NCBI RefSeq assembly: GCF_013009555.1
Contig: NZ_CP046176.1
Location: 372,001-436,000, forward strand
Length of the DNA: 64,000 bases
Direction: 5' to 3'
DNA from: Phocaeicola dorei
Lineage (GTDB): Bacteria; Bacteroidota; Bacteroidia; Bacteroidales; Bacteroidaceae
Shown here one piece after another: positions 3,399 through 35,011 of this stretch (positions are counted from its first letter, which is position 1; each line of letters starts with the position of its first letter). A program made the position numbers and the translations under genes. Under the pieces are notes generated by a model. That model did not search any database. It was not told the origin of the DNA and saw nothing but the letters and a program-made list of their open reading frames with translations.

Positions 3399-4910
3399 AT
3401 GATACAAAAGGTTCTAATTGCCAACCGTGGCGAGATAGCCGTGCGCGTTATGCGCTCTTGTAAAGAGATGGGTATCCGCACTGTGGCTGTTTTTTCGGAA
3501 GCCGACCGTACGGCGCGTCATGTGATGTATGCAGACGAAGCCTGCCTGATAGGGCCTGCCGCTTCCAAAGAAAGTTATCTGAATATAGATAATATCATTA
3601 AAGCTGCAAGGCAACATCATGCCGATGCCATTCATCCCGGTTATGGTTTTTTGTCCGAGAATGCTGATTTTGCCCGCCGATGCAAAGAGGAGGGGATCAT
3701 CTTTATCGGCCCTTCCGCCGAGACGATGGAAGCGATGGGTGACAAGATTGCCGCCCGTAAGCGTATGATTGCCGCAGGCGTTCCCGTGGTCCCCGGTACG
3801 GAACAACCGTTGCAAAGTGCCGAAGAGGCGGTACGTATCTGTAATGCAATAGGCTATCCTGTCATGCTGAAGGCTTCTATGGGAGGCGGCGGTAAAGGGA
3901 TGAGGCTGATACACAGTGAAGACGAAGTGGTGGAGGCATATAACACCGCCCGTTCCGAGTCCATGTCTTCTTTCGGGGATGATACGGTTTATCTGGAAAA
4001 ATTTGTGGAGGAACCCCATCATATAGAATTTCAAATTCTGGGTGACAATCATGGCAATGTAATCCATCTGTTTGACCGCGAGTGTTCTGTCCAGCGTCGC
4101 AACCAGAAGATTGTAGAGGAGAGCCCGTCTCCGTTCCTTACTCCGGAACTCCGCCAGGAGATGGGGGAAAAGGCAGTGGCTGCCGCCAGGGCGGTGAACT
4201 ATTCGGGAGCCGGAACTATCGAGTTTCTGGTGGACAAGAACCGCGATTTCTATTTTCTGGAGATGAACACCCGTTTGCAGGTGGAGCATCCCATCACCGA
4301 AGAAGTGGTGGGCGTGGATCTGGTAAAAGAACAAATCCGTATAGCCAATAACGAGGTGCTGCACCTGAAGCAAGAAGAACTTTTCCAGCGCGGTCATGCC
4401 ATCGAATGTCGTATCTGTGCGGAAGACACGGAGAACAACTTCATGCCTTCGCCGGGTATCATCAAACAGCTGACGGAGCCTAACGGCATCGGCGTACGCA
4501 TTGACAGCTACGTTTACGAAGGTTACGAGATTCCCATCTATTACGACCCGATGATAGGCAAGCTGATTGTATGGGCTACGACCCGCCAATATGCCATAGA
4601 ACGTATGCGCCGGGTACTTTACGAGTACAAGATTACGGGGCTGAAGACCAACCTCAGTTATCTGAAACGCATCATGCATACCCCCGACTTTGTAAAGGGT
4701 GAGTATAATACCTTGTTCATAGAGAAGAACTCGCGTATGCTGCTCCGTGGCAACGGTAATAATGAGGAGATTGAGAATATCGCCATGATCGCCTCTTATA
4801 TTGACTATCTGATGAATCTGGAAGAGAACAAGAGTCCCCAGCTGTCTGATGCCCGTCCCATCAGCCGCTGGCGTGAGTTCGGCTTGCAGAAAGGAGTATT
4901 GAGAATCTGA
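3399..4910 (+). CDS. accC: Biotin carboxylase subunit of an acyl-CoA carboxylase
   Basis: A 503-residue ATP-grasp biotin carboxylase that carboxylates the biotin carried by the next gene product using ATP and bicarbonate. Visible motifs are IANRGEIAVRVMRSC at the N-terminus, HPGYGFLSEN (79-88), the glycine-rich ATP lid MGGGGKGMRL (161-170) and EMNTRLQVEHPITEE near 285-300. An upstream in-frame start at 3333 would add 22 unrelated residues; ATG 3399 gives the canonical MIQKVLIANRGE. It is followed by a biotin carrier and a carboxyltransferase, so the complex is probably a propionyl-CoA or methylmalonyl-CoA type enzyme rather than the fatty-acid-synthesis acetyl-CoA carboxylase; this assignment is inferred from context. 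The tail of about 50 residues is somewhat longer than in E. coli AccC. Confidence 0.9.
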   Translation: MIQKVLIANRGEIAVRVMRSCKEMGIRTVAVFSEADRTARHVMYADEACLIGPAASKESYLNIDNIIKAARQHHADAIHPGYGFLSENADFARRCKEEGIIFIGPSAETMEAMGDKIAARKRMIAAGVPVVPGTEQPLQSAEEAVRICNAIGYPVMLKASMGGGGKGMRLIHSEDEVVEAYNTARSESMSSFGDDTVYLEKFVEEPHHIEFQILGDNHGNVIHLFDRECSVQRRNQKIVEESPSPFLTPELRQEMGEKAVAAARAVNYSGAGTIEFLVDKNRDFYFLEMNTRLQVEHPITEEVVGVDLVKEQIRIANNEVLHLKQEELFQRGHAIECRICAEDTENNFMPSPGIIKQLTEPNGIGVRIDSYVYEGYEIPIYYDPMIGKLIVWATTRQYAIERMRRVLYEYKITGLKTNLSYLKRIMHTPDFVKGEYNTLFIEKNSRMLLRGNGNNEEIENIAMIASYIDYLMNLEENKSPQLSDARPISRWREFGLQKGVLRI

Positions 4911-10183: not shown

Positions 10184-11524
10184 ATGGGACGAGTTAAGTC
10201 ATTAAGTAATTCAGGCAGCTTTGTATTGCGAAAAGACAATCAAAATGCTAAAGGTGAGTATCAGGTTTATATTCAATATTCATTGGATAGGAAAATAGCC
10301 AAAGATAAAACAGATGTATGGGTAAAGGAAAAGGAGTGGAACGATAAGGCGCAGAAGGTTCGTTCCGTCCATCCTCAAAGTGTCCGATTGAATAAGATAC
10401 TTGATAAGAAGAAAAATGATATTGATGCTCTGATATTGGATTTTCCTTCTGAGAAACGTTTAACAATTGATGTGTTGCGCTCAATGGTTAGAGGTGAATA
10501 TAATGTGAATGAGGAGAAAAACCAGGATTTTGTGCAGTTGGCTGTTGATAATTTGGAGGCATTATATAAAACAGAAAAGATAGGTATAAGTGTTCGTGAT
10601 AATGGTTTAAATGGTTTGAAACTGTTTCGTACTTTTCTTTTGGAAGAGTTAGGCGAGGATAGTATTAGTGTTGCTGATATGACGGAAGATATAGTAGATT
10701 CTTATATTATATGGCGAAAAAATAAACGTAATAATATAAATGCCACTATCAATAAGACATTAACCCCGTTGATGAAGGCTGCAAAACTTGCGGCTAGAAA
10801 AGGGTTGATGGAAGCTTCTGTTGCTGATGCAATTTCAGAAAAGTATTTGCCGATTAAAACGAAATTATCGGATGAAGATGCGGAAGATGAAGATGTCCGC
10901 TACTTGACTAAAGAACAGTTGAGTAAGTTTGTTGCGTTGTATAATGTAGTGAAATATCCACGCACAAGGGAATATATGGATATGTTCTTATTTGCCTTTC
11001 ATGCTTGCGGTTTACGCTTCTCCGATATACTCACCCTTCAATGGATGCACGTTGATTTGGAAAAGCATAAGTTGAAGAAAAAATTATATAAAGGAAAAGT
11101 GCCACATGAAATTGCTTTGAATGATGCGGCATTAAAAATCTTGGAGCAATGGAAAATGAAAAATAGAAGTAACCGTTTTGTCTTTGCTTTGCTGCCTGAT
11201 GATTTTAATTTGGCTGATGAAGAAGAGCTTAATCGAATGCGGATTAATAAAAACACTCCTATAAAGGTGTCGTTAAAAGCATTAGGGCATAAAATCGGTG
11301 GTTTGTCATTCAACTTGACGATGCACGTTGCAAGACATACATTTGCAGTGTTCGCTTTGAATAATGGGGTTGATGTGCATAAGGTTAGTTGTTTGTTGGC
11401 TCATAGTAGTGTGATGGTAACAGAAAAAGTGTATGCGAAATTCTTACCCGAAACATTACAAAAAGAGGTGGAAACAAAGCTGAACTTTGATTTCACCCCT
11501 GATTATAATACTGCTGTTGATTAA
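10184..11524 (+). CDS. Tyrosine recombinase (site-specific integrase)
   Basis: A 446-residue integrase. Residues about 1-110 form the N-terminal arm-binding region, about 115-210 a phage-integrase SAM-like core-binding domain, and the C-terminal 220 residues the catalytic domain. The catalytic set is visible: arginine in FHACGLRFSDIL, HVARH (HxxR), the histidine of LLAHSS and the nucleophile tyrosine in EKVYAKF. It begins 180 bp from the attL core and points into the element, as usual for an integrase beside its own att site. Its stop codon overlaps that of the opposing HTH gene in a shared TTAA. It should catalyse insertion into the DUF2795 3' end. Confidence 0.95.
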   Translation: MGRVKSLSNSGSFVLRKDNQNAKGEYQVYIQYSLDRKIAKDKTDVWVKEKEWNDKAQKVRSVHPQSVRLNKILDKKKNDIDALILDFPSEKRLTIDVLRSMVRGEYNVNEEKNQDFVQLAVDNLEALYKTEKIGISVRDNGLNGLKLFRTFLLEELGEDSISVADMTEDIVDSYIIWRKNKRNNINATINKTLTPLMKAAKLAARKGLMEASVADAISEKYLPIKTKLSDEDAEDEDVRYLTKEQLSKFVALYNVVKYPRTREYMDMFLFAFHACGLRFSDILTLQWMHVDLEKHKLKKKLYKGKVPHEIALNDAALKILEQWKMKNRSNRFVFALLPDDFNLADEEELNRMRINKNTPIKVSLKALGHKIGGLSFNLTMHVARHTFAVFALNNGVDVHKVSCLLAHSSVMVTEKVYAKFLPETLQKEVETKLNFDFTPDYNTAVD

Positions 11525-11811
11525 TTGTAAGCATAGGCTTCATAATGATTGTGGGATAAAAATTGGAGTATATCTTTTCGGGTATACCAAAATTTATCCC
11601 CTTCTTTATGGAATCCTAATTTTCTCTCGTCTCGGTACTTTCGTATTAACTTGTCTTGTACCCCAAGTAATTCTCTGATTTCACTATTTGTGTAAATTTC
11701 TTTTTCTGTAAATTTTGATTTTTCAGATAGCTCTTTTACTTGTCTGCTTAGAACTTCTATATTTAAAAATAATTTGTTCATTGTTTCATTATCAATTAAT
11801 TCGTAACTCAT
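11521..11811 (-). CDS. Helix-turn-helix protein, excisionase-like
   Basis: A 96-residue protein. Residues 1-35 (NKLFLNIEVLSRQVKELSEKS) look like a short coiled coil; residues 38-90 (YTNSEIRELLGVQDKLIRKYRDERKLGFHKEGDKFWYTRKDILQFL) are a MerR-like winged HTH of the excisionase group common in Bacteroides elements. It is convergent with the integrase and the two stop codons share TTAA at 11521-11524, so expression of each could affect the other. The probable role is directionality control of integration or regulation of the element; this is inferred from family and position. Confidence 0.8.
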   Translation of the reverse strand: MSYELIDNETMNKLFLNIEVLSRQVKELSEKSKFTEKEIYTNSEIRELLGVQDKLIRKYRDERKLGFHKEGDKFWYTRKDILQFLSHNHYEAYAYN

Positions 11812-12069
11812 GGTTTTAATATATTATTCTCCACTCAGGTCTTAGAGTTATAGACAAGGTGGTTATTATTATGTAATGATATGGGAATACCGTTACATTG
11901 CAAATATACGACTTGGAATAGTCATTTACCACTTTTTAGAGACACAACCCCTATTTTTTAATATATTTAACGTAGTCCTACTGCCGTAACCCCTCACTCA
12001 GGGTGGAGGAAGCCCTCCCTATGGGGGATATTTTGCATGTGGTTTGCTTTGTGGAGTCCCAAATTTTTG
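11812..12069. other. Intergenic region with a promoter for the HTH gene
   Basis: On the minus strand TATATTTG lies at 11901-11908, a good -7 element for the HTH gene. Around 12002-12040 GGTGGAGG and CCCTCCCT could form a short hairpin, perhaps terminating the primase-like gene. Nothing else is recognised. Confidence 0.4.
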
Positions 12070-13401
12070 CTATATTTTTTGTGATTTCACCCAATTATAG
12101 AGACTACTTTTGCCGATTTTGATTCCCTGATTTTTTAGCGATTCCAAATTCTCTTTAACCGATAAATTCGTATCGTATAATTGTTTGAGTTGTAAGTCCA
12201 ATAACATTTTAGTGGCTATGTTTCGGGCTGCTTGTTTGTTTACTCCGTATTTTTCGCAATACTTGGGATTGACAACAAACTGCCTTTCTTCTTTTTTCGG
12301 CTTAATACTTCGTTTAGTGTCATTCCAAGCGTCTTTGGCAATTTGGTACAGAATCTTATTGGTTATAACTTTGTCTTGGTTATCCACGTAGTATCTACGT
12401 TCACATACAAGACAATACAACAGATGTTCCATTGTAATTTCAGGTAACATAATCTTGCGAAGCAGACAACCGTCATATAGTAACTTCCTTCTGTGTCCTG
12501 ATTTTAATTTAACTGCATGGCTTTTATAGACAATTGTCCCGTCACCTTTGGTTAGTGGTTCTTTGTACCAATATCGGGCAATCTTTACATAATTGTCGGG
12601 CAGTAATATATAAGGTGTATCTGAATCTGTTTCAGGTAATGGGGTGGCTTCAATAAATGGGTATATTTCGGCATACTTACGTATGAAAATTTCTTCATTC
12701 CTTTTGTAGCTCATACCCCAAAAGTCCTTCATAAATTCAGTATTGCCAATCGGACTTTTCAAGTCAGTTTGTATGTTGTTCTTCCTCTCTTTTTTTAATA
12801 TACTATCTGAGTTGGAAAGATAATTTTCATCAAATCCAAAATCCGTAAAACAAAATATATTATCATTATAATAATATACAACATTATCATTGCCATTACC
12901 TGCGAATTGCTGCGAAGCATTCAAACATGTTTTGTCCTTTAAATCAAAACCTTCAATCTCTTTTTGGATATTATAAACAATAGTATTAGCTATGCCCCTA
13001 TAATATTCATTGCTTCTTATTGGTTCGTTAAAAACATAAATCAGTCTAAATCTATTATTTATATTATCAATATTACTATAAGTAGTATAAATGATGGTCG
13101 GCTTATGTTCATCTTTTAATGATAAATAGAAGTCGTTCATAGATAGAAACGTATCGTCAATATCCAATATTACGCAATCAGCAAAGTCAAAATTGGCAAT
13201 CGTTTTTTCTCGTAGTCCAAATGTTTTACTTGTTGTTTTAAAGTTTTGACAAATGCAATACCCTTCGCAAATAAGGTTTATAAGTTTCTCTATCGTTATT
13301 GTGTGGCGTTGGTAAGTTAGTATTTTTCAATTATCAGGTTTGTTCTCAAATTTCTGCACACTAACGCCAAGTGTGATTTTCTTTTTGTTGTTTTTAAACA
13401 T
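12070..13401 (-). pseudogene. Primase-like replication gene interrupted by an in-frame TGA
   Basis: Reading from ATG 13401, codons 1-24 encode MFKNNKKKITLGVSVQKFEN and four more residues, then TGA at 13327-13329, and the same frame continues openly for 418 codons to the stop at 12070. Conserved-looking sequence spans the stop: ITLGVSVQKF before it and YQRHTITIEKLINLICEGYC after it. LDIDDTFLSM near residue 79 fits the DxD metal motif of archaeo-eukaryotic primases, as in primases of Bacteroides elements. No ATG lies between the stop and the DIDD motif; a TTG at 13167 would give 365 residues. The C-terminus (ESLKNQGIKIGKSSLYNWVK) looks like a HTH. Likely inactive, unless readthrough or a non-ATG start rescues it. 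Confidence 0.65.
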
Positions 13402-13472
13402 TTTATTATGTGCGTAATAGCTTTTTATCTATACGCTGACTTGAAAGGATTCCTATTCAAGTTTTTTCAATG

Positions 13473-13480
13473 CAAATATA
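13473..13480 (-). promoter_or_regulatory. Promoter -7 element for the primase-like gene
   Basis: Minus-strand TATATTTG, about 72 bp before the ATG at 13401. The rest of 13402-13689 is AT-rich and shows no gene. Confidence 0.5.
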
Positions 13481-13689
13481 CAACTTAGAACATATTACTA
13501 CCACTTTTTTAGTTATAATTGACAAAAAAGTCTTTTTGAGTTAAAGAAAAATACGCAAGTACGGTATATAGAATATGTTTTCTTTTTTAGATTATGTAAT
13601 TCATCTTATATGTCTTATAATTAATAACTTATTGCTTATTTATGTGGACTTAATAGTGTGGATTTATAGGTGTGATAACAGTTAGCTAT

Positions 13690-13932
13690 CTATTTTTTAC
13701 CCCTATTCCCTGATTTTGACAAAAGTATTCCTTTCCTAATGATACATTTGCTGTTTTGGTATGGATTTTTATAAGAAAGTCCATAATTTCTTAACGAGCC
13801 GTAAGTTATTCCAAGTTCTTCGGGTGAAAAGTATTCAAATATATTGGCTATACTGCCAAAATAGTGATGAGTGTCATTCTCTTTTATGTAAAGATGAATA
13901 ACTGTTCGTTCTTTTTTCTCTTTTTCAGTCAT
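13690..13932 (-). CDS. Small conserved hypothetical protein
   Basis: An 80-residue protein beginning MTEKEKKERTVIHLYIKEND. It has a strand-rich start, then HHYFGSIANIFEYFSPEELG and a C-terminal basic part CIIRKGILLSKSGNRGKK. I recall similar small proteins from Bacteroides mobile elements but know no function. An upstream in-frame start at 13992 would add 20 residues lacking this charged character, and a minus-strand -7 element TATTTTTG at 13952-13959 lies before the shorter start, so ATG 13932 is preferred. It could be a small DNA-binding or regulatory protein; that is a guess. Confidence 0.6.
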   Translation of the reverse strand: MTEKEKKERTVIHLYIKENDTHHYFGSIANIFEYFSPEELGITYGSLRNYGLSYKNPYQNSKCIIRKGILLSKSGNRGKK

Positions 13933-14019
13933 AATTACAATAGTTTTATTGCAAAAATAGGAATTATATGGCATAAAATGAATAAATGTCATATTTTTAA
14001 CTATTTCTAGCGCAAATAA

Positions 14020-14051
14020 ATTGCATGTATTAAGTATATGTCATATATTTG
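14020..14051 (+). promoter_or_regulatory. Promoter for the 14076-15481 genes
   Basis: ATTG at 14020-14023 and TATATTTG at 14044-14051 with 20 bp between them fit the Bacteroidota promoter well. It is divergent from the promoter of the 80-residue gene. Confidence 0.65.
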
Positions 14052-14075
14052 CATTGTAATTAAAACAAAGACGAT

Positions 14076-14381
14076 ATGAAACGGTATAATAAACAACAAG
14101 TGATGAAAGACGCTCACAGACTTTATAACAATGATTTTCAGCGTAGAGGACGTTCTTGGTCGGAGTGCCTAAAGGCGGCTTGGAGTTGGGAACGGGATGC
14201 TGTTCGCACACGTGAAGAAAAAGCCGTAAAACTCGATGCGATGATTGCAGCAAGTTGGGCAACGCATAATGCACGTAAAAATGAGAGTGTTCATAAAAAT
14301 GAGTTTGAGGGCTTATCTGCTGATGCGGTTTCCTGGGCAATGGGATATAATCGTGGCAATGGTTTCTACTGTGGTGACTAA
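14076..14381 (+). CDS. Hypothetical protein of the element
   Basis: A 101-residue protein, charged and helical at the N-terminus (MKRYNKQQVMKDAHRLYNND, then RSWSECLKAAWSWERDAVRTREEK) and ending in SWAMGYNRGNGFYCGD. No membrane segment or signal. The helical K/R-rich start resembles small proteins found near single-strand annealing or replication genes of Bacteroides phages and elements, but no function is known. It lies directly behind a good promoter and 35 bp before the DUF2693 gene, so the two probably form an operon. Confidence 0.65.
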   Translation: MKRYNKQQVMKDAHRLYNNDFQRRGRSWSECLKAAWSWERDAVRTREEKAVKLDAMIAASWATHNARKNESVHKNEFEGLSADAVSWAMGYNRGNGFYCGD

Positions 14382-30480: not shown

Positions 30481-30978
30481 CCTTCAAATCCTTCATTGTA
30501 AGGTAATATATTGTTACTCAGTTGTTTATGATGAACCATTTTTACTTTATTTCCTTCATCCGGATATAAATCCTTCAGCCTGCTGAAATGAGGGCTTATC
30601 CGGCTTTTGGGTCAGCAGAAATTTAGTGGGGATTTATTTCATGCAATTGTTTGTGATACCCCCCTGTACGAGCGTTCGTAATTTTATGGATGGTTTGTAT
30701 GACAGGCAAAAGTAAAGATTGGGATTGGATATATGCCCTCACTTTAGCATTTCGACTTGTTGCTATATAACATACATGTAGTCAGATGTATATCTTCCTG
30801 CCAATATGTTGTTTCGCTTTTTTATAAGAAGGCAGTCTGGGGACTTTTCCTCCCTGCTTAAGGAATGCGTAGCTTTGTAATCAGATTCATCCTTAAAAGC
30901 TCTTGTCTATATTTCTAAACCTTTCCCGCCGTATGGTTAAAGGTTTTTTTCCTGTTTGTTCTATCTCCGTAAGCCTTT
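30481..30978. other. Intergenic stretch without recognised genes
   Basis: No ORF, RNA gene or repeat is recognised. It forms the first part of a 1.2-kb noncoding region before the AraC-type gene and could hold decayed sequence. Confidence 0.4.
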
Positions 30979-31049
30979 GGAGTTAACTCCATAGCCTTGG
31001 GAGATAACTCCAAAGCTTATGGAGATAGCTCCAAAGGCTATGGAGATAG
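30979..31049. repeat. 21-bp tandem repeat built on a GGAG..CTCC palindrome
   Basis: Units start at 30979, 31000, 31021 and 31042: GGAGTTAACTCC, GGAGATAACTCC, GGAGATAGCTCC and a partial GGAGATAG, each followed by an AAAGCCTAT-like spacer. The period is exactly 21 bp, two helical turns, which suits cooperative protein binding on one face. The 31050-31322 stretch after it shows nothing recognisable. Confidence 0.8.
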
Positions 31050-31322
31050 AATACATCCGTATAAAAAGGTTTAATCAGGAGATAGAAAAGGTTTATGCAA
31101 CAGGGTTCGATCTATTGTCATTTCCATAATAATTCCAAATGCTCCCGGACTTTTATAGTAGAACTTTTTAAAAAAACTGGTTGGCGGTTTTCTCTTTGAT
31201 GAAATAAAAAAAGTTAAAAGGATGAACTTTTCTTCTTTTAAAGCTAACATGAACTCTTTATAAGAGGAAATCTTCTGTTTTTCAGTTTGTTATGCTTCGC
31301 TTTTACATGAACCGATTTATAT

Positions 31323-31526
31323 ATCTCTTGATAAGAGATATATATTTTCTGTGCAAAAATAAGCAAAGTTTTGAGAACTAATACATTTTTGGCAAAAAAA
31401 ATAGGAATTTATATAAAAAAATAGTTCTCTCACTTATTTATATTCTTCTTTATTCCGTTTCAACAGCTCTGTAATATGTTGATATAATGTGTGTTAATGC
31501 TTTTTGTAGATCTCTTATCAAGAGAT
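31323..31526. promoter_or_regulatory. Candidate invertible promoter segment bounded by inverted 17-bp sites
   Basis: ATCTCTTGATAAGAGAT (31323-31339) and its exact reverse complement ATCTCTTATCAAGAGAT (31510-31526) enclose 170 bp. Each site is a dyad with an asymmetric 3-bp centre, like crossover sites of site-specific invertases. Inside, the minus strand carries TATTTTTG (31354-31361), a -7 element now pointing away from the AraC/S-layer genes. The right site extends to a 16-bp perfect hairpin (31501-31516 with 31520-31535), which could also stop transcription. Confidence 0.55.
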
Positions 31527-31617
31527 CTACAAAAAATGTCGTTTTTAAGACCTTTTTATATATAGAATATACCTGGTCTTTGAAGCGGTATAACTAAATG
31601 AAAACAACATAAAGCAG

Positions 31618-32106
31618 ATGGAATATCTATTTCTGAGACGTAAACGCACGACCGCTACTTCCGAGCGGCAGAAAACTTTGCTTTTCAAGGCCGCCGAGCG
31701 GCAATGGAAAGAGGAGTTTGCCGGAAAGGGAACAGACATTCGCAAGGTGGATTGCAATATATATAAAGGTATATTGTACCAGCTTGAGATACGTCAGGTA
31801 TTCCTTGACACCTCGCTTTCTCTGAAAAAACTGAGTGAACTGCTTGAAACGAACCAGACCTACCTGAGTAATGTAGTGAATAAGTATTTTGGTTGCAACT
31901 TGAAGGAACTTGTGAACAGCTATCGCGTGGAATATGCCAAAGAACTTCTTGATTCCGGTCGTTGCACATTGAATGACTTGCCCTGTAGTTGTGGTTTCGC
32001 CTCTAAAAGTGCTTTCTACTCGGCTTTCAGTCGTATTGTGGGCATATCACCTTTATCTTATCAGTCCAGGGAAAGGAGGAAACGGTATTTACAGGTGATA
32101 AACTAG
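31618..32106 (+). CDS. AraC-type HTH regulator (short)
   Basis: A 162-residue protein whose C-terminal 95 residues are an AraC/XylS DNA-binding domain: LKKLSELLETNQTYLSNVVNKYFG is the first HTH and LNDLPCSCGFASKSAFYSAFSRIVGISPLSYQ the second, with the usual closing motif. The N-terminal 55 residues are basic and show no membrane or ligand domain, so it lacks the sensor part of hybrid two-component proteins. It lies 76 bp before the S-layer-like gene, same strand, and directly after the candidate invertible segment; it is a likely regulator of that gene. The translation start is not certain. Confidence 0.75.
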   Translation: MEYLFLRRKRTTATSERQKTLLFKAAERQWKEEFAGKGTDIRKVDCNIYKGILYQLEIRQVFLDTSLSLKKLSELLETNQTYLSNVVNKYFGCNLKELVNSYRVEYAKELLDSGRCTLNDLPCSCGFASKSAFYSAFSRIVGISPLSYQSRERRKRYLQVIN

Positions 32107-32182: not shown

Positions 32183-35011
32183 ATGAACAAAAAGTTTTTA
32201 AGTGCAATCCTGTTCGGAGCCTTAATGGTTTCGTCAACAGGAACATTTGTGTCTTGTAAGGACTATGATGATGACATTGACCGCATCGACAAGGAATTGA
32301 GCGAAGTCAAGGAAACCATTGCAAGTCTTGACTCGGCAATTAAGGCAGGTAAATTCGTTCAGTCATGTAATGAGGTTACCGGTGGATATGAACTGGTTTT
32401 CACTGACGGTTCCAAAATTACTATCAAGAATGGTACTAATGGAGCAGATGGTACTACTGTTATCCCTGAATTCCGTGTGGAAGGCAATTACTGGCAGGTT
32501 AGCACAGACAAAGGTGCTACTTGGGTGGATGTGAAAGATACCGAAGGTAACAAAGTTCCGGCCAGAGGTCAGGATGGTGAAGCCGCTGGTTCAAACGTGT
32601 CTTGGGTGACAGTGGACGGTGTGGAATACATCAAGATCGGTGACAAAGTTACTGATTTGAAGCAGAACAATGAATTTCCTAACATTGCTGTAGATGCTGA
32701 AAGCAAGACTGTAATTGTGACTATCGACGGACAGAACTATACTTTGCTGCAGGAAGGTTCTGCATTCAAAGGGTTGCAGACTGTGGTTTACAGAAAACAG
32801 GCTGTTGATGATTATAGTGATGTTTGTAAGGCTTATGATATCTATTGGCAGGAAAATGAAGGAAGTTTTAACCCGGATAAGGATGTTTTGTTTGCATCTG
32901 TTCCTGCTTATGCTTCATTCAAGGTATATCCGGGTGATTTCTCATTGAATAATGCGAAATTCTCCTTTGTTGATACGTATCAGGTTCGTAGTGTTGCTCC
33001 TGCTTTGACCTATATGGAAGGTTCTGCAAAATTAGAAAACGGTATTTTGAGCCTTGCTATTTTACCGAATGAAGGTATTGGAAATAATACCTATGCAACC
33101 TCATTGGATGTAACTATGTATGGTCAATATACATCAGCTTCCGATTATTTCACGGTAAGTAGAACACATGCATCTGTAAAGAGCATTGTAAATGCTTTTA
33201 CCTCTACTAATATGAAAGAAGATGAATACCCTGCAATAATCAATGCAGATGGTGCTTCTTATGATGGTAAATCTTATGGATGCTTTGACTATCAAGGTGT
33301 TTATAATGTAAATGATTCTATTGACGCTTACATTTCCGGAGCAGCAAAAGTATGGTTGAAGTCAACCAATATTTCATATACCAGAGTGTTCAGATTGTTG
33401 GATCAGAATGAGGATTATACATTTAATGGACAACCTATTAAAACTCGTCAGGGTATCTTTGATTTTAAAGATAATGTTTTGTCTGTAAAATCGACTAACC
33501 AGGCATCTGCTATTGATGAATATGCTGCAATAGAAGTGACTACTACAGTTAAACCACAGGAAGAAGGTGTTAAAGAATACGAGGTGAGAAATGTAGTATT
33601 CATCAAGGCTGTTCGTCCTGCTGTTAATCCTGTATTCGGAACCGTTGCTTTGAAACCGTTGGATGCTAAGGAAAACTTTGCATTTGCATACAATAGCTCA
33701 AAAGCTCGGATCATTACTTTGGATGTTCGTAACTTTGAGGCTGCTATTGAAGGTCGTGATGTTATTTCTAATAAAAATCAGGAATATTGCACATTCATTA
33801 CATTGAACAAGCCTGTATATGATGCTGGTGGCAAGTTGTTAAGTTATCAATCAATATCTGATAACTGTAATCAATATTATCAAAATAACAATTTATCGAC
33901 TAATATTCCTGCAAAAGTTACAGACTTGGCTAAAAATCTTGAAACGGTTAAAAATGAAGCTGTCTTGTATTATAAGAACGGTGGAAACAATGCTGACAAA
34001 GACTCTTTGTTCTTGATTTTGACACCGGGTGCTGACTTTGTACAGTTCAAGAATATGTCCTTGTTGGCTGGAGCTTCTTCTTATTATCCTGGTTGGGGAG
34101 CTACCGAGAAAATGACTAACGGAGTGAACACACCGTATGGTGTTTACAACAGCTTCGTAAACAAACTGTTCAAGGTTTCTGTAGATAACTTCTCTGTAAC
34201 CTATAACTTTGATTGTCCTATCAAGGATGAATACAAGAGTCGTACTATTATCGGTACATGGACAAAAACTGGCGGTGCTTATAGCAAGTTCATCATGGAA
34301 TCTCAAGAATTCGACAAGATGTACAATGTTGTTCCTGAAGATGCGACAGTTGAGTTTGAATTGGATTATAAGAAGCAGAATGCTTATGTTCAGGAAATGA
34401 TGAAAGAAAATAACATTGAATGGACTAGCACTAATCAGATTGCCTTTACTCCGCGTGTAGATTTGGCTAAGGTTGGAACTTTGAAAGTTGATATCTATGA
34501 TGCTACAGCTGGTTCTGCTAAGCGTGTATTGTTTGCAACTGAAGACTGGAAGGTGGAACAACCTATCTTAGAATTCTCTGCAATAGTAGACTTGAAGTAT
34601 AATAATCCGGCATTGGCTACAAACGATCAGATTAAGATTATCGATTTGATTAATGCTTTAGGTGCAGCAGACAAGAAGAAATGGACTGAACTGACATTGA
34701 AAGATGCTGTTAAAAATGTATTGGTAAAATACAATGCCGCTACGATTGCTGCTGAAGAAACCATAGCTGAAACATTGTATAGAAAAGATGCTGCTGGTAA
34801 TGCTGTTGCTGAAGCTACAGGATTGGAAATTTCTTTGGATGAGAATGAAAAAGACTTTACTTATGATGCAGCTACTGCAACTCTTACTTGGAAGGGAACT
34901 CCGACAGGTACAGTATATACTCATGATGTAAACTTGAACATTACTTATACTCATAACTGGGGTGTTGTAACCAAGACATTCAAGGTAACTGTAACAAGAA
35001 AAGTACAGTAA
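32183..35011 (+). CDS. Large surface lipoprotein, S-layer-like (PL29-lyase N-terminal domain type)
   Basis: A 942-residue protein with a lipoprotein signal (ILFGALMVSSTGTFVSC) whose lipidated cysteine is followed by KDYDDD, the acidic surface-export signal of Bacteroidota. A short coiled coil (IDRIDKELSEVKETIASLDSAI) and the segment YELVFTDGSKITIKNGTNGADG follow, as in the domain named after PL29 lyases. The remainder is long beta-rich sequence with no catalytic motif. The N-terminus closely resembles, from memory, the S-layer protein family of B. thetaiotaomicron, whose expression is phase-variable. It ends at a terminator and is preceded by an AraC-type gene. Confidence 0.8.
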   Translation: MNKKFLSAILFGALMVSSTGTFVSCKDYDDDIDRIDKELSEVKETIASLDSAIKAGKFVQSCNEVTGGYELVFTDGSKITIKNGTNGADGTTVIPEFRVEGNYWQVSTDKGATWVDVKDTEGNKVPARGQDGEAAGSNVSWVTVDGVEYIKIGDKVTDLKQNNEFPNIAVDAESKTVIVTIDGQNYTLLQEGSAFKGLQTVVYRKQAVDDYSDVCKAYDIYWQENEGSFNPDKDVLFASVPAYASFKVYPGDFSLNNAKFSFVDTYQVRSVAPALTYMEGSAKLENGILSLAILPNEGIGNNTYATSLDVTMYGQYTSASDYFTVSRTHASVKSIVNAFTSTNMKEDEYPAIINADGASYDGKSYGCFDYQGVYNVNDSIDAYISGAAKVWLKSTNISYTRVFRLLDQNEDYTFNGQPIKTRQGIFDFKDNVLSVKSTNQASAIDEYAAIEVTTTVKPQEEGVKEYEVRNVVFIKAVRPAVNPVFGTVALKPLDAKENFAFAYNSSKARIITLDVRNFEAAIEGRDVISNKNQEYCTFITLNKPVYDAGGKLLSYQSISDNCNQYYQNNNLSTNIPAKVTDLAKNLETVKNEAVLYYKNGGNNADKDSLFLILTPGADFVQFKNMSLLAGASSYYPGWGATEKMTNGVNTPYGVYNSFVNKLFKVSVDNFSVTYNFDCPIKDEYKSRTIIGTWTKTGGAYSKFIMESQEFDKMYNVVPEDATVEFELDYKKQNAYVQEMMKENNIEWTSTNQIAFTPRVDLAKVGTLKVDIYDATAGSAKRVLFATEDWKVEQPILEFSAIVDLKYNNPALATNDQIKIIDLINALGAADKKKWTELTLKDAVKNVLVKYNAATIAAEETIAETLYRKDAAGNAVAEATGLEISLDENEKDFTYDAATATLTWKGTPTGTVYTHDVNLNITYTHNWGVVTKTFKVTVTRKVQ

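Follow-up and report, generated by a model that had tools for sequence, protein, structure and literature searches.

A probable phase-variable invertible promoter ahead of an AraC-type gene and a large lipoprotein gene in Phocaeicola dorei, and its dispersed relatives

Is the 170-bp segment that lies between inverted repeats upstream of a regulatory gene and a large lipoprotein gene a promoter that can be flipped, and if so, in which state was it sequenced? The window (the whole stretch of 64,000 nucleotides that was analysed) lies at bases 372001-436000 of one contig of 5.63 Mb. The two putative recombination sites, ATCTCTT-GAT-AAGAGAT on the left (31323..31339, plus strand) and ATCTCTT-ATC-AAGAGAT on the right (31510..31526, plus strand), are 17 bp long and exact reverse complements of each other, each a dyad with an asymmetric 3-bp centre, just as the first-pass annotation described them. 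Dyad arms reach 12 bp at the left site (31318-31344) and 16 bp at the right (31501-31535). The 170 bp that they enclose, the presumed invertible segment (31340..31509, without strand), contain CAAAAATA on the plus strand at 31354-31361, which reads TATTTTTG on the minus strand and there matches the -7 consensus TAnnTTTG reported for Bacteroides (PMC4747536). This element is directed away from the genes, as had been claimed, and the window copy faces away from the AraC gene in what the annotation had rightly called the OFF orientation. Downstream follow an AraC-type HTH gene of 162 aa (31618..32106, plus strand; Pfam HTH_18 and HTH_AraC, with no sensor domain found by Pfam) and a large lipoprotein-like gene of 942 aa (32183..35011, plus strand; DUF4988, with a signal peptide common to five paralogs), both as the annotation had them. 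No match to the lipoprotein was found in the PDB by sequence up to E 1. The three ORFs 3' of it gave matches of the 8xMP, NUDIX, and sugar-epimerase types. The earlier statement that no invertase is adjacent also stands: the ORFs scanned on either side of the sites are other things, and no PF00589 match lies closer than about 20 kb. Upstream of the switch, the intergenic DNA at 30972-31066 holds a cluster of overlapping GGAG..CTCC inverted repeats.

The anatomy of an invertible promoter, an inverted-repeat pair around a promoter, is present at this locus. Judged from sequence, the segment is most likely a phase-variable invertible promoter (we would put the probability at roughly 0.87). The proposed order of events is as follows: a tyrosine site-specific recombinase would act in trans on both sites, strands would be exchanged within the TT-NNN-AA centre of each, and the segment would invert. 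As sequenced, with TAnnTTTG facing away, the AraC-lipoprotein pair would be OFF; after inversion, the element would point across the right site toward the AraC gene, which is probably co-transcribed with the lipoprotein gene. A single enzyme, for which the candidate is a clade of short (~312 aa) recombinases found beside the 18.9-kb locus, would serve a dispersed set, made up of five lipoprotein loci together with a fimbrial operon. Each pair's private 3-bp centre would keep its two ends compatible with each other and may restrict exchange with other loci.

This set was found by searching the 5.63-Mb genome for CTCTTNNNAAGAG-N(162-192)-CTCTTNNNAAGAG, which returned 11 pairs, as compared to 0 in a reversed control. 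Six of the 11 have the outer arms of the window's sites (ATCTCTT..AAGAGAT; class A, control again 0) and are located at 18.9, 206.9, 278.6, 403.3 (the window), 5,439.6, and 5,591.4 kb. At five of these six, an AraC-type gene and a large lipoprotein gene with a near-identical signal peptide follow; the sixth stands ahead of a fimbrial operon (DUF3575, DUF3868, fimbrillin, and Mfa2 genes), and calling it OFF presumes that this operon is its target, because minus-strand ORFs lie on its other side. An AraC-alignment scan of species genomes located 32 loci, 31 of them in P. vulgatus, P. sartorii, P. massiliensis, P. faecalis, and two unclassified genomes, and the remaining one a distant Aquimarina locus. 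With the Aquimarina locus left out, an exact site pair was observed upstream in 24/31; among the others, L055 has a pair with one arm altered, L033 and L053 have one site only, L043 and L059 are cut off by a contig edge, and L058 and L061 are without any site. The strict class-A pair was present in 6 of 61 Phocaeicola genomes, with 6, 8, 9, 3, 1, and 5 pairs. Lack of conservation of the sites had been named in advance as a finding that would count against inversion; the P. vulgatus ortholog carries identical sites, centres, and orientation. Viral contigs scanned for the ON junction, the promoter end, and the pair gave 0 matches. Our literature search found no description of the class-A set; supplementary inverton catalogues, which lay outside that search, may already list the segments. 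Differently oriented regions have been reported in P. dorei, in a paper whose text, in the part available, leaves the loci unnamed (PMC10939037).

Orientation is uniform across the set. TAnnTTTG occurs at the same position, directed away from the gene, in all 30 class-A loci read (six own and 24 in relatives; five genomes), and no TAnnTTTG was found in the 110 bases to the right of the right site in these 30. By this reading every class-A locus seen is OFF, and no ON-oriented locus was found among the 30 or among the relatives' orthologs. In the phase-variable S-layer system of Bacteroides thetaiotaomicron, BT1927 is reported to be expressed in about 1 in 1,000 cells (PMC12548429); a similarly rare ON state could yield an all-OFF sample, as could the absence of inversion. 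That a gene-facing element means ON is supported by the site-less AraC-lipoprotein loci L058 and L061, in which TATATTTG faces the gene about 100 bp before 10001. Their fixed promoters make these two loci natural locked-ON candidates. Dyad symmetry was tried as a marker of the preferred state and dropped, since the split was too mixed (of the 30 loci, 19 are more symmetric in their present orientation, 3 are less so, and 8 show no difference).

An enzyme for the set can be proposed from its neighbourhood in relatives. The window's genome has 40 PF00589 matches. Its invertase-clade recombinases other than the candidate described here each have a nearby inverted-repeat pair (L103, 719-1031; L105, 624-945; L106, 1802-2011; L107, 1820-2026; L109, 663-935), and the pairs by L105 and L109 read GTTACTT-NNN-AAGTAAC. 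The candidate is an intact short tyrosine recombinase that ends about 0.5 kb (P. vulgatus) or 0.3 kb (P. sartorii) before a class-A pair; the P. vulgatus ortholog has the domains of a tyrosine recombinase, PF13102 and PF00589 (SAM-like, Phage_integrase). A tree of 36 recombinases, which took one match from each of 28 relatives out of the 45 in which a recombinase was matched (17/45 were left out), put the candidate in a clade with support 96/96, together with sequences from genomes G055, G027, G041, G010, and G018 and the N-terminal piece from the window's own genome. All six strict class-A genomes fall in this clade. Two other members come close to the strict pattern: G055 has a site pair one base off it, and G041 (79% complete, about 470 contigs) has a contig-edge half-site with the same promoter element and no complete pair. 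G027 and G010 hold further recombinase matches of 61-63% identity outside the tree sample, so that identity alone is no marker of the clade. The AraC gene was present in 7/7 clade relatives (as a contig-edge fragment in G041) and in 0/9 other Phocaeicola genomes tried. This co-occurrence of the recombinase clade with class-A sites in closely related Phocaeicola species is suggestive of a candidate enzyme.

The ortholog of the candidate in the window's genome is frame-disrupted, so the set may be frozen OFF there or served by another recombinase. Databases commonly contain intact copies: the best 120 of 7,401 matches in a protein search with the N-terminal piece include an intact cluster, 312 aa long, of 1,792 sequences; shorter or chimeric-looking sequences occur among the 11 clusters inspected from the same matches. 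The disruption may be either an allele or a sequencing error. A former invertible promoter, dead in this strain because its recombinase is broken, would also account for all six own pairs being OFF, and we hold this outcome to be possible, if rather unlikely. Against it, the possibility of sequencing error weakens the case for a broken gene, the pairs and their centres are intact at all six own loci, and other invertase-clade recombinases are present in the genome. There is also a reported precedent in P. vulgatus, where a polysaccharide promoter still inverts in a strain whose adjacent recombinase is defective (PMC13114119).

The three-base centres bear on the choice between inversion and simple protein binding. 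Left and right centres are reverse-complementary in 30/30 class-A loci, as compared to a mean of 11.6 matched loci and a maximum of 20 when partners were shuffled in 20,000 trials. The centres vary between loci, with eight different left centres among the 30, and the 30 are not independent events because many share ancestry (19/30 have AGT or ACT). At one locus, where each of the two flanks is about 95% alike, the centres read AGT/ACT in the window's genome and P. vulgatus and GGT/ACC in P. sartorii; here the centres at both ends have been altered together. Strand exchange followed by repair of a mismatched centre would explain this joint change, for which a protein-binding site would have no need. 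The dyads could instead bind a regulator (the neighbouring AraC protein, for instance) that loops or shuts a fixed promoter without any inversion. Such an arrangement would suit the single orientation of all 30 loci, the dyad form of the sites, and the AraC-type gene that follows in the lipoprotein loci. Nothing in it calls for variable centres that are reverse-complementary in every locus or altered at both ends at once, however, and it leaves aside both the sixth pair, which stands before a fimbrial operon instead of an AraC gene, and the co-occurrence of the sites with a recombinase clade; we consider it improbable. Transcription terminators or attenuators are more improbable still: both dyads can fold into perfect hairpins (arms of 12 and 16 bp), but at the right site the stem has the T run on its 5' side and the A run on its 3' side, the reverse of what an intrinsic terminator would require in the direction of the gene, and terminators do not need matched reverse-complement centres.

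Possible traces of recombination are seen in relatives. When L033 was compared with L034, flanks on both sides aligned at 95.6-97.6% through one remaining site, and the inter-site segment was missing. P. faecalis has two further single-site AraC loci, L053/L186 and L187; the outer flanks of L187 and of the two-site locus L052 agree at 97% on each side (60 bases per side). As an alternative to recombination, single-site alleles of the L033 type could have arisen by slippage between short repeats. In the metagenome-assembled genome G055, a record of NODE contigs, contig C49 stops 7 bp into the right site and shares an overlap of exactly 55 bp with contig C118, and those 7 bp are exactly the stretch common to the OFF and ON arrangements there. 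A word size of 55 is usual in SPAdes. The break would fit an assembly branch arising from mixed orientations, with the caveat that the left end of the segment is unbroken. Contigs C46 and C143 of G027 were considered as two orientations of one locus and rejected by flank mapping: their flanks lie at 747 and 1,769 kb in P. vulgatus (about 1.0 Mb apart) and at 4,568 and 180 kb in G000, and they are therefore two loci. The end of L172 and the start of L184, on these two contigs, carry the same 55-bp switch end, whose centre is GGT/ACC.

The other five pairs in the window's genome form a second class (class B, TGGGGTTCTCTTNNNAAGAGAACCCCA), with arms TGGGGTTCTCTT..AAGAGAACCCCA and one site that deviates in the outer arm. 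Class B resembles class A in its CTCTT-NNN-AAGAG core, in having TAnnTTTG inside, in its similar length, and in its matched centres (5/5 pairs); it differs in its outer arms and in that both orientations occur, a point in favour of inversion in class A as well. In the window's genome, L027 was called ON and L029-L031 OFF by script, and L028, for which the script gave no orientation, was judged ON by eye. Between L027 (9847-10036) and L150 of G027 (1501-1689), the flanks are collinear at 82% and 86% and the inner segment is reversed at 88%. The centres of L150 and L027 read ATG/CAT and CAT/ATG, respectively, which simple inversion fails to explain. The genes downstream of class-B loci look polysaccharide-like by eye; no Pfam match was found in the two first ORFs scanned. 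A recombinase of about 400 aa beside one class-B inverton differs from the short candidate in having an arm-binding domain.

The first-pass annotation drew an analogy with the S-layer family of B. thetaiotaomicron, in which BT1927-BT1926 and its paralogs are described as a phase-variable S-layer locus (PMC12548429, PMC12118408, PMC12578637). The analogy survives in switch architecture: as those reports describe it, BT1927 likewise has a large surface lipoprotein, a promoter between dyad inverted repeats, several copies per genome, and a mostly OFF state. It does not extend to the repeats or the neighbours. The BT1927-type repeat is given as CCGTTACCTABVRAGTAAC and lies beside integrases (PMC12118408), whereas the window sites read ATCTCTTNNNAAGAGAT, the AraC gene comes first, and no integrase is adjacent. 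The BT1926 barrel partner adjoins BT1927, and no OmpA-type barrel was found by Pfam among the next three ORFs in the window, where a barrel without a Pfam match could be missed. Judged by its repeats and neighbouring genes, the window locus is not of the BT1927 type, and S-layer is an unproven label, by analogy, for its lipoprotein. The Mpi, Tsr0667, and Tsr19 master-invertase regulons reported in B. fragilis, in which one recombinase serves several distant promoters (PMC4747536), are similar in plan; they differ in repeats and enzymes, and distant control in Phocaeicola is suggested by co-occurrence only. By analogy, the class-A switch would work as the BT1927 switches and these regulons do.

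What the switch controls appears to be partly fixed and partly exchanged. Aligned across the five own paralogs, the AraC-type genes of class-A loci are 63-85% identical to that of the window; the five lipoproteins are near-identical over their first ~32 residues, and the whole proteins are only 15-23% identical to the window's. Four loci were compared between the window's genome and P. vulgatus. At two of these orthologous loci, the lipoproteins are 94% and 99% identical. At the other two (L023/L035 and L024/L041), the upstream promoter and AraC DNA is 96-100% identical and the lipoproteins are 31% and 45% identical, with the similarity tailing off in about the first 600 bases of the lipoprotein gene; thus the promoter, AraC gene, and signal peptide look fixed and the body of the protein looks exchanged, an apparent cassette exchange in 2/4 comparable loci. 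A fifth locus, L038 of P. vulgatus ATCC 8482 (10540-14100), was left out; there the lipoprotein ORF next to the intact candidate invertase has been shortened to 275 aa. The ORFs that follow it are transposase-like and resemble an insertion.

We tentatively suggest, at somewhat less than even odds, a dispersed surface-coat regulon in which one short tyrosine recombinase would serve one to nine sites per genome, each with a private 3-bp barcode and a swapped lipoprotein cassette. Strand exchange would, under this proposal, keep the centres of each pair identical and so limit scrambling between loci. To the first reading of the locus the analysis adds the six-copy set and a candidate invertase clade whose own copy is frame-disrupted. 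The fixed-promoter and single-site alleles are natural controls, and the role of the 3-bp centre is a simple, testable prediction. Phocaeicola species are common human gut bacteria, and in B. thetaiotaomicron phase-variable S-layer lipoproteins are reported to alter resistance to phage and complement (PMC12548429); with the class-A set, Phocaeicola would have a comparable means of switching its coat, along with a candidate enzyme.
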